Shown here: positions 17,525 to 20,129 of the stretch, piece after piece
Position numbering within the stretch: the stretch's first letter is position 1
How the letters are laid out: each line of letters opens with the position of its first letter
Assembly (NCBI RefSeq): GCF_004363075.1
Contig: NZ_SNYN01000003.1
Span: forward strand, 124,001 to 188,000
Length of the DNA stretch: 64,000 nt
Source of the DNA: Actinorugispora endophytica
GTDB lineage: Bacteria > Actinomycetota > Actinomycetes > Streptosporangiales > Streptosporangiaceae
Reading direction: 5' to 3'
Position numbers and translations under genes: made by a program
The notes under the pieces: generated by a model
Databases searched by the model: none
What the model saw: the letters and a program-made list of their open reading frames with translations, nothing else
What the model was told of the DNA's origin: nothing

Positions 17525-18013
17525 GTGCGCCGCGTCGTCTGCCCCGGGTCCTTCGACCCCGTAACCAACGGCCACATCGACATCATCGGCCGGGTCGCGC
17601 GCCAGAACGAGGAGGTCATCGTCGCCGTTCTGGTCAACGTGAACAAGCGCGGCCTGTTCGCCGTGGACGAGAAGCTCGACATGCTCCGGGCCGCCACGGC
17701 GGAGTTCGGCAACGTCACCGTGGCCAAGTTCGACGGGCTGCTGGTGGACTTCTGCCGGCGCAACGACGTCTCCGCCATCGTGCGGAGCCTGCGCTCGGTC
17801 AGCGACTTCGACTACGAACTCCAGATCGCGCAGATGAACTACCAGCTCTCGGGCGTCGACACGCTGTTCCTGACGGCCAACCCGAAGTACTCCTTCCTCA
17901 GCTCCAGCCTGGTCCGCGAGGTCGCCCAGTACGGCGGGGACGTCAGCAGCCTGGTCCCCGGATACGTGGAGGAGCGGCTGCGGGAGAAGTACGCCGAACG
18001 CCTCGGTGAGTGA
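17525..18013 (+). CDS. coaD: Phosphopantetheine adenylyltransferase
   Basis: Adenylates 4'-phosphopantetheine, the penultimate step of coenzyme A synthesis. 162 aa, standard length. N-terminal VCPGSFDPVTNGHIDII (nucleotidyltransferase HxGH-type motif) and the C-terminal YSFLSSSLVREVAQYGGDV motif (ISSS-type) are present. GTG 17525 follows GAGAGGAG. The frame runs open upstream inside rsmD, but that part is a shadow. Confidence 0.96.
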   Translation: MRRVVCPGSFDPVTNGHIDIIGRVARQNEEVIVAVLVNVNKRGLFAVDEKLDMLRAATAEFGNVTVAKFDGLLVDFCRRNDVSAIVRSLRSVSDFDYELQIAQMNYQLSGVDTLFLTANPKYSFLSSSLVREVAQYGGDVSSLVPGYVEERLREKYAERLGE

Positions 18014-18029
18014 TCCGAGGGGCTCTGAT

Positions 18030-18059
18030 TTGGGGCGCGTCGACTCCTGTCGCTAGAAT
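18030..18059 (+). promoter_or_regulatory. Putative promoter for DUF177-rpmF
   Basis: A TAGAAT -10 hexamer at 18054-18059, 18 bases after TTGGGG (18030-18035). It lies just downstream of coaD and about 145 bases before the DUF177 start. The -10 is good; the -35 is weak. Confidence 0.5.
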
Positions 18060-18204
18060 CGGTGCCTGACTGTGCCCGTGGTCCAGTCGCGCGGCCGCCG
18101 GTGACCGGCAGCCGCTGTCCCAGCCGTCGTTCCCGCGCACCGCGGGGGCGGGTCCCACCGAAAGCGCGATCATCCTGTCTCGTCTAGACCCCCGTTCCCC
18201 GTTC

Positions 18205-18759
18205 GTGGTCGACACCCGGCCGCTGGGCCGCCAGGCCGGCTCGATGCGGACGGACGTCCGTGTCGTCCCGGCTCCGGCGCCGTTGGCGGTGGGGATGGCC
18301 AGCGTGCCCGAGGGGAGCGAGATCGAGCTGGACTTCCGGCTCGAGGCCGTCATGGAGGGCGTGCTCGTGACGGGCGAGGCGCGGACCGCGTTCGCGGCCG
18401 AGTGCTCGCGCTGCCTGGACCCGCTGACCGAAGAGGTCGAGGCCGGCTTCCAGGAGCTCTTCCAGTATCCGCCGGACGACGACCCGTACGGGCGCGACGC
18501 CGGGGGAGAGGCGGACGCCGACGACGAGGATGAGGACTACTATCTTGAGGGCGACCTGCTCGACCTCGAGCCGGTGGTCCGCGACGCGGTGGTGCTCGCG
18601 CTGCCGTCGTCGCCGTTGTGCCGAGAGGACTGCCCCGGTCTGTGTGTGGACTGCGGCGTCCGACTGGCCGACGCCGGTCCTGACCACGGTCACGGCGACC
18701 GCGTCGACCCCCGATGGGAGGCGCTGCACCGGCTGCGCGAGGAGCCGGGAGAGCGCTGA
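18205..18759 (+). CDS. DUF177 (YceD-like) metal-binding protein
   Basis: 184 aa, family YceD/DUF177, almost always encoded directly before rpmF and thought to aid 23S rRNA or L32 handling. The conserved AECSRCLDPL motif and the C-terminal zinc site (CREDCPGLCVDCGV) are present, with an acidic loop (DADDEDEDYY) between. The family N-terminus (DPRSPFVVDTRPLGRQAGSM) begins a few residues before the GTG at 18205, so the true start may be a non-canonical codon slightly upstream; the only in-frame candidate seen is CTG 18175. Confidence 0.88.
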   Translation: MVDTRPLGRQAGSMRTDVRVVPAPAPLAVGMASVPEGSEIELDFRLEAVMEGVLVTGEARTAFAAECSRCLDPLTEEVEAGFQELFQYPPDDDPYGRDAGGEADADDEDEDYYLEGDLLDLEPVVRDAVVLALPSSPLCREDCPGLCVDCGVRLADAGPDHGHGDRVDPRWEALHRLREEPGER

Positions 18760-18869
18760 ACTCACAACCTAGGGAGCGTCGGGCGGACAGGCCGGCGAAA
18801 CCCAGTAAGTCCGTGCTTCCCGACCGGGTTGCGCTCTCCGCTCCGGCGGGCAGATCCGCAAGGAGCATG

Positions 18870-18932
18870 GTGTTCCCCGCGAACGCGGGGATGACCGAGG
18901 AAAGTTAGCTCCCGCGCGCGCGGGGGTGACCC
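18870..18932 (+). repeat. Two CRISPR-repeat-like hairpins in the rpmF leader
   Basis: 18870-18897 is 28 bases, beginning GTGTTCCCCGCG and ending CGCGGGGATGACCG around a 2-base AA tip. It matches the length, stem and ends of actinobacterial type I-E CRISPR repeats. A second, degenerate 28-base version follows at 18905-18932 (CTCCCGCG / CGCGGGGGTGACCC). Only 7 bases separate them, not the roughly 32 of a real array. The pair abuts the rpmF ribosome site AGGAGG (18933-18938), so both hairpins would be in the rpmF mRNA leader. Confidence 0.65.
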
Positions 18933-18944
18933 AGGAGGATTGAA

Positions 18945-19124
18945 GTGGCCGTCCCTAAGCGGAAGATGTCGCGGAGCAACACCCGCACCCGTCGCTCCCA
19001 GTGGAAGGCGTCGCGCCCGGTGCTGGTCAACTGCCCGCGCTGCCGCGACCCCAAGCTGCCGCACATCGCGTGCCCGACGTGCGGTACCTACAACAACCGC
19101 CAGGTCATCAGCCCGGCGTCCTAA
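18945..19124 (+). CDS. rpmF: 50S ribosomal protein L32
   Basis: 59-aa ribosomal protein beginning [18 protein letters not shown], the family signature, with two CxxC zinc pairs (CPRC, CPTC). GTG 18945 has a perfect AGGAGG site (18933-18938) 6 bases upstream. Encoded between DUF177 and rnc as in most actinobacteria. The leader carries two CRISPR-repeat-like hairpins directly before the ribosome site, which could affect its translation (inference). Confidence 0.96.
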
Positions 19125-19400
19125 GGCGGGCAAGGGCGGGTCCGGTGGTTTCGGGCCCGCCGTTCGCGCTTTCGCGCCCGCGAGGAGGAACCCGCGGGCG
19201 TCCGGGCCGTATCGGGGACATCCCGAGGCCGTGGTGGCCGCCGGGGAGGGAACGCCTCCGCGACGCTCACCTCGCCTTCGAGCATCCCTGATCGCCCGGG
19301 CAGTTCGCAGCCGTGTCCGATCTGCACAGTACGTTCACCATGCGGCGGTTCCCGCCCGGCGGGAGTGTCGCCCGGCGCAACACCAGGGATGTGAAAGCCG

Positions 19401-20129
19401 ATGGCAACGCAGATCTCCGCGTCCGAGGCCCGTGAGTTCCAGAGGTCGGTCGGGGTCGACGTGGACCCCAAGATGCTGACCCGGGCGCTCACCCACCGGT
19501 CCTACGCCTACGAGAAGGGCGGGCTGCCGACCAACGAGCGGCTGGAGTTCCTCGGCGACTCCGTGCTGGGGCTGGTCGTCACCGACACCCTCTTCCGCAC
19601 CCACCCGGACCTTCCCGAGGGGCAGCTGGCCAAGCTGCGCGCGGCCGTGGTCAACATGCGCGCGCTGGCCGACGTGGCCCGTGGCCTCGGAATCGGCCGC
19701 TACGTGCGCCTGGGCCGGGGCGAGGAGGGCACCGGGGGCCGGGACAAGTCCTCGATCCTGGCCGACACCCTGGAGGCCCTGATCGGCGCCGTCTACCTGG
19801 ACCGCGGTCTGGACGAGGCCTCCGCGCTGGTGCACAGGCTGTTCGACCCGATGATCGCCAAGGCCTCGGGGCTGGGCGCGGGTCTGGACTGGAAGACCTC
19901 CCTGCAGGAGCTCACCGCCTCCGAGCTGCTCGGCGTGCCCGAGTACCAGGTCGAGGAGAGCGGCCCGGACCACCAGAAGACCTTCCGCGCCACGGTGCGG
20001 GTCGCGGGCCAGAGCTACGGTTCGGGCGAGGGGCGCAGCAAGAAGGAGGCCGAGCAGCAGGCCGCGGAGTCGGCCTGGAAGGCCATTCGGGCGGCGGCGG
20101 ACGCGGGCGGCGCCGCGAGCGGGGGCTGA
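19401..20129 (+). CDS. rnc: Ribonuclease III
   Basis: Double-strand-specific endoribonuclease that processes rRNA precursors and structured mRNAs. 242 aa: RNase III catalytic domain with [13 protein letters not shown] (signature, about 45-57) and the [13 protein letters not shown] motif, then a double-stranded RNA-binding domain (about 165-232, [18 protein letters not shown]). ATG 19401; 276 bases of non-coding sequence separate it from rpmF. mutM starts 6 bases after its stop. Confidence 0.96.

Follow-up and report, generated by a model that had tools for sequence, protein, structure and literature searches.

Tandem hairpins resembling type I-E CRISPR repeats form a candidate rpmF mRNA leader in the Nocardiopsis/Murinocardiopsis clade

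Introduction

The window analysed here, a 64,000-nucleotide stretch of the Actinorugispora endophytica genome, raises the question of whether hairpins that look like type I-E CRISPR repeats, located in front of the ribosomal protein gene rpmF, are tied to the resident CRISPR system or serve the gene that they precede. The initial annotation had described a 28-base stem with I-E-repeat-like ends and length, and a degenerate second copy 7 bases later, directly against the ribosome-binding site of rpmF; two GC hairpins are indeed present in the sequence. It had proposed that Cas6e might cut this mRNA or, as a fallback, that convergent hairpins regulate L32 synthesis. Our analyses support the fallback as a reading. 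With moderate confidence, we regard the hairpins as a lineage-specific, cis-acting leader of the rpmF mRNA that most likely sets the translation of L32, and their likeness to I-E repeats as convergent or fossil.

Organization of the locus

The relevant features, all on the forward (+) strand, are the following (SD, Shine-Dalgarno sequence).

18205..18759, +: yceD (DUF177), the upstream gene of the operon (Pfam YceD, E 9.2e-28)
18760..18944, +: yceD-rpmF gap of 185 nt, which contains the leader
18870..18897, +: hairpin 1 (hp1), I-E-repeat-like; stem 18874-18880/18885-18891, tail UGACCG (26.3 bits with the I-E repeat model described below)
18905..18932, +: hairpin 2 (hp2); stem 18909-18915/18920-18926, tail UGACCC (23.3 bits with the same model)
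18933..18938, +: SD of rpmF, AGGAGG, directly 3' of hp2 (identified from the sequence; invariant in 31 aligned leaders)
18945..19124, +: rpmF, coding for ribosomal protein bL32, with a GTG start at 18945 (Pfam Ribosomal_L32p, E 1.6e-23; two CxxC pairs in the translation)
19401..20129, +: rnc, coding for RNase III, the next gene downstream of rpmF (Pfam Ribonuclease_3 and dsrm)

The stem of hp1 (GTGTTCCCCGCGAACGCGGGGATGACCG) consists of a U-A pair and six GC pairs closed by a GAAC tetraloop, and that of hp2 (TTAGCTCCCGCGCGCGCGGGGGTGACCC) of the arms CUCCCGC and GCGGGGG around a GCGC tetraloop; seven bases separate the two hairpins. They are copies of one unit, as the model of hp2 also matches hp1 in four genomes (G085, G131, G110 and G000, the latter being the genome of this window). 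A scan of positions 18600-19450 for promoters of the sigma-70 type found none.

Upstream of the hairpins, at 18780-18835 of the window, a block like GGCGAARCCCRGYAASTCCGTGCT recurs by eye in loci L015, L022 and L024, and partly in L016 and L018; the yceD-rpmF spacer may contain a further element besides the hairpins. A third repeat-like hairpin is found farther upstream in three loci (L008:1366-1393, L014:1366-1394 and L009:1369-1391, scoring 18.2, 13.7 and 8.2 bits, respectively). In three loci of genus g9 (L026, L030 and L031), the yceD stop codon is located just 5' of hp1, and a ribosome terminating yceD translation could disturb the fold of the leader there. The genome also harbours a second L32-like gene (G000:C1:332609-332743, L007), with 57% identity to RpmF over query residues 1-44, which we take to be possibly a zinc-free paralogue.

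Distribution of the leader among relatives

Of 150 family genomes, 148 yielded an rpmF gene, and we inspected the leaders of the 30 best matches. We searched the family with a sequence-only model built from 31 rows and spanning hp2 to the start codon, which matched 68 of 341 genomes at E <= 2.1e-8, with stringent filters that may miss weak matches. These genomes belong to 15 of 68 genera, with 39 of them in genus g46. All 30 strong-match loci that we fetched run straight into rpmF, the start of which reads GTGGCYG. Conservation of the hairpins in relatives, which the initial annotation had left to be checked, is thus borne out in part of the family. A weak, deviating match to the same model precedes rpmF in G062 (genus g63). 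The next best match outside a leader (G089:C41:8812-8844, E 3.2e-6) is not located near rpmF and belongs to a genome that lacks the leader.

None of the 30 named actinobacterial outgroup loci searched has a leader match, with best scores of at most 10.3 bits versus 54.9 bits for the control locus L006. By eye, yceD almost touches rpmF in many of the outgroup loci. Some Nocardioides have a different, unrelated-looking GC hairpin in the yceD-rpmF gap.

In a tree of YceD, L32 and RNase III (44 rows, built by a quick method and devoid of a g8 row), the leader rows of 14 of the 15 genera and of g63, including the deviating L034, form one clade with an SH-aLRT support of 95. Its named members include Nocardiopsis species and Murinocardiopsis. 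The leader was likely gained once, in the ancestor of this Nocardiopsis/Murinocardiopsis clade, but this is not firm because the tree contains only three family rows without the leader (L032, L036 and L045).

Conservation and folding of the hairpins

Three sets of leaders were used: alignment A3, with 27 rows (without L011, L013, L024, L030, L034, L037, L040, L041, L043 and L044); alignment A4, with 31 rows (A3 plus L011, L013, L024 and L034); and a set of 34 rows for identity comparisons (without L011, L013 and L034). L038 covers the same contig range as L016.

Across the 34 leaders, the mean pairwise identity is 0.847 for the segment made of hp2, UGACCC and the SD, 0.625 for the hp1 region and 0.565 for the upstream spacer, compared with 0.839 at the third and 0.928 at the first two codon positions of rpmF. 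The hp2-SD segment is therefore much better conserved than the spacer, but about as well as the third codon positions of the gene. Within the leader, hp2 is the most conserved part. The motif GACCCAGGAGG is nearly invariant among the aligned leaders, also where hp2 is unlike a CRISPR repeat, and so is GACCC between the stem and the SD in 31 leaders. The sequence of the stem varies from genus to genus without losing its ability to fold into a hairpin, and hp2 occurs in two registers, as read by eye from the alignment: CUCCCGC/GCGGGGG versus CCCGCG/CGCGGG, the latter in g22, g31 and others.

Some of these features would also suit a passive element, namely a stable hairpin that has no regulatory role and would merely shield the rpmF mRNA from decay or serve to insulate its SD against the spacer. 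The stem is directly 5' of the SD, its sequence can differ between genera as long as it folds, and the identity of the hp2-SD segment does not exceed that of the third codon positions of rpmF. Nevertheless, the near-invariance of GACCC goes beyond the needs of insulation, and we consider a purely passive role unlikely.

The 121-nt leader region is predicted to fold more stably than its dinucleotide shuffles (z -2.5; 0 of 200), and its best fold is one merged hp1:hp2 duplex rather than two hairpins. Among 28 leaders folded singly, at least 11 likewise favour the merged duplex, as judged by eye. In the alignment, the two-hairpin form has 93.9% of cells paired, with three pairs (5 cells) changed on both sides, and its covariation score is equalled by 2 of 500 shuffles. 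In relatives, hp1 has two pairs with double changes within itself. Control structures slid by -3 or +3 positions also yield three double-change pairs (3 and 6 cells), but with only 48-53% of cells paired. As for the merged form, 91.1% of its cells are paired and none of its pairs is changed on both sides. Two separate hairpins under selection are thus supported, although not proven, and the merged duplex may be an alternative fold. One leader, L024, apparently has a single hairpin.

The merged duplex would be central to another explanation, according to which hp1 and hp2 together form an RNase III site cut by the enzyme encoded farther downstream by rnc, which would thereby control its own operon. 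The merged duplex is the predicted best fold of the region, its pairing holds in most cells of the alignment, and rnc follows rpmF. There is also a precedent, as a passage of PMC10126417 on Xu et al. 2008 states that RNase III of S. coelicolor cleaves the polycistronic transcript from which it is made at a pair of stem-loops, of which one is upstream of rnc. The resemblance lies in an rnc-containing polycistronic transcript with stem-loops. Conversely, the double changes are found within hp1 and not in the merged form, L024 seems to have one hairpin only, and an RNase III site would not be expected to conserve GACCCAGGAGG next to its stem. We therefore regard control by RNase III as improbable.

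Possible action on L32 translation

The location of the leader at the SD, the presence of an SD-complementary CUCC and the nearly invariant GACCCAGGAGG point to translation initiation as the step on which a regulatory leader would act. Each unit consists of a GC hairpin and a trailing (R)UGACC, and the second unit ends on the SD. In the mechanism that we propose, hp2 would by folding keep its anti-SD-like 5' CUCC off AGGAGG or, in a few species, on it, and a trans-acting factor might shift this balance, either bL32 itself or the ribosome via the SD-like GGGGGUGACC.

RNAalifold predicts pairing of the CUCC in the 5' arm of hp2 with the SD. Over 28 leaders, the predicted probability of hp2 as a local hairpin averages 0.23 and that of pairing between its 5' arm and the SD 0.08, with values of at least 0.25 for the latter in three leaders (L039, 0.99; L019, 0.91; L023, 0.25). 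As pairing with the SD is strong in L039 and L019 only and partial in L023, simple sequestration is not general. The slid controls, the fold probabilities of hp2 and the identity of third codon positions count against a regulatory leader. In a 4.9-kb stretch that includes the 23S gene, we found no sense match to rRNA beyond those of shuffles, so that mimicry of rRNA gives no sequence support to L32 as the ligand, but not all ribosomal protein leaders mimic rRNA. Pairing of GGGGGTGACCC with the 3' tail of the 16S rRNA (10/11) was also considered; shuffled words pair equally well somewhere in the 4.9 kb, and we keep it as an idea only.

Leaders of ribosomal protein genes are known in bacteria. 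Extracts from PMC7247131 report 20 of them, including L31 hairpin leaders of Actinobacteria, with sequestration of the ribosome-binding site as a stated mechanism and the gene product as the default ligand of the class. By analogy, autoregulation by bL32 would be the default for the rpmF leader. The latter shares with the leaders in those extracts, such as that of L31 in Actinobacteria, one or more conserved hairpins directly 5' of a single ribosomal protein gene and confinement to a lineage. It differs in its slight covariation, its two tandem hairpins and the lack of detected rRNA mimicry. In the text of PMC7247131, 'L32' does not appear, and the main text has rpmF once, in the row of a Corynebacteriaceae L31 leader. 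A search of positions 18000-20000 of the window against Rfam 15 gave no match at E <= 1, nor did the leader match in the loci of five relatives, where the one sub-threshold match, in L028, falls off the leader. The titles and abstract beginnings that we searched, mostly outside subscription journals, mention neither an L32 leader in this clade nor cutting of rpmF mRNA by Cas6e.

Likeness to type I-E CRISPR repeats

We built a covariance model from 25 I-E repeat consensuses taken from arrays of this genome and of relatives. It gave E values of 2.6e-6 and 3.1e-5 for hp1 and hp2, respectively, in a search set of 191 kb that includes many homologous leaders. The best other match in the window that overlaps neither hairpin scores 15.2 bits, and the I-E-like stem and flanks of hp1 and hp2 are thus above the window background. 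In the same 41 sources beyond the yceD-rpmF gap, the top scores are 21.4, 19.7 and 18.5 bits. We also searched six other whole genomes, scoring 150 candidates in each. Matches of 22-29 bits that look solitary, as judged by spacing, occur there at approximately one to three per genome, for example in G009 (22.1 bits), G022 (27.2 and 24.9 bits) and G015 (29.3 and 22.3 bits). The same search of the own genome, again with 150 candidates scored, was filled by arrays. One repeat-like match per genome is therefore not rare, but two within 63 bases are beyond chance, although hp1 and hp2 are copies of one unit. One isolated match of 45.0 bits was found in G146.

The resident I-E system with Cas6e that the initial annotation had invoked exists, with a full gene set and arrays. 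In this genome of 5.25 Mb, the locus on contig C4 includes a cas3-like gene, cse1, cse2, casC, cas5e, casE, cas1 and cas2. Arrays of the class 1 repeat, GTGCTCCCCGCGCACGCGGGGATGGTCC, are found on C4, C5 and C13, and a variant on C2. A second class of I-E-like arrays, with CCGAGCCCCACGCACGTGGGGATGAACC and a CCAAG variant, is also on C2 (171456-174838, 167370-167761 and 130444; L187 and L188). The CCGAGCCCCACGCACGTGGGGATGAACC class shares the genome with the GTGCTCCCC class, and one casE gene was found. Within the clade, few of the repeat types are found more than once.

In sequence, hp1 is identical to the class 1 repeat at 23 of 28 positions and to the I-E repeat of Bifidobacterium animalis, as given in an extract of PMC4762764, at 24 of 28, and the actinomycete I-E palindrome in that extract, CC(T)CCGCNNNNGCGGG(A)G, fits hp1. 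No further copy of hp1 within three mismatches exists anywhere in the genome. Identity is lower for hp2 (19/28 to the class 1 repeat and 21/28 to the C2 variant). The leader shares with actinobacterial I-E repeats the length of 28, the CCCCGC-N4-GCGGGG stem, the GTG start and the ATG..C end. It differs from them by a unit spacing of ~35 rather than 61, by the lack of a second near-identical genomic copy and by its retention without detectable casE or casC. The window contains no CRISPR array signal, and the leader is not a series of identical repeats with ~33-nt spacers but a pair of divergent units separated by 7 nt. Outside g46, hp2 scores 15.3-24.3 bits in 17 of the 26 leader rows, so that its likeness to a repeat may be ancestral.

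Relationship between the leader and Cas6e

If the hairpins were a Cas6e site, the resident I-E endonuclease would bind or cut the leader and link the expression of L32 or rnc to CRISPR activity. The scores of both hairpins with the repeat model and the presence of cse1, cse2, casC, cas5e, casE, cas1, cas2 and cas3 in one locus are in line with this. So is, at first sight, the co-occurrence with casE, which was detected at E <= 0.001 in 55 of the 68 leader genomes, some of which, such as G085 and G133, score under the casE cut-off, versus 92 of the 273 other family genomes. However, this enrichment is confounded with the clade, and we discarded it as a sign of a link to Cas6e and therefore turned to the members of the clade without casE.

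The remaining 13 of the 68 leader genomes have no detectable casE. All 13 also lack detectable casC, in searches that found both positive controls; where a genome is fragmented, casE might be missing because of a gap in the assembly, but G180 and G203 consist of 2 and 4 contigs, respectively. Within g46, the seven leaders from casE-less genomes, among these 13, have an identity of 0.936 to the rest, versus 0.909 for the 11 from genomes with casE (18 g46 leaders in total). The scores of hp2 with the repeat model are 10.2-16.4 bits in g46, while in g31 hp2 scores 8.6 bits or is absent from the matches listed, as it is in g22; hp2, its tail and the SD are still intact in all three. The leader thus seems able to function at present without Cas6e, because casE-less g46 leaders are as close to the rest as those with casE and the hp2-SD segment is intact despite low repeat scores. 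Arrays are present in both casE-less leader genomes that we inspected, G087 and G146. Their repeats (many in G087, a few in G146) are I-E-like, yet neither casE nor casC is detectable, and these arrays are apparently orphaned.

That the hairpins exist because of Cas6e is thus not supported, given the retention of the leader in 13 genomes without detectable casE and casC and an hp2 unlike the repeat in g46, g31 and g22 (at most 16.4 bits, or absent from the matches listed). Together with the lack of other hp1 copies in the genome, this makes a Cas6e site very unlikely. It is more speculative still that the leader descends from a captured pair of I-E repeats and that genomes having kept Cas6e still bind or cut its hairpins, wiring the expression of L32, and of rnc with it, to CRISPR. 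The best reading is that the likeness of the rpmF leader to CRISPR repeats is convergent or fossil and does not reflect its present function.

Conclusions

We classify the rpmF leader as a new candidate among the leaders of ribosomal protein genes and not as a CRISPR repeat. This work adds a candidate rpmF/L32 leader, found in one actinobacterial clade, for which the tested leaders have no match in Rfam 15 and which is not named in the extracts from PMC7247131. It also indicates that a strong-looking match to CRISPR repeats (E about 1e-6) can fall in a probably unrelated regulatory RNA, which calls for caution with claims of solitary CRISPR repeats within mRNAs.
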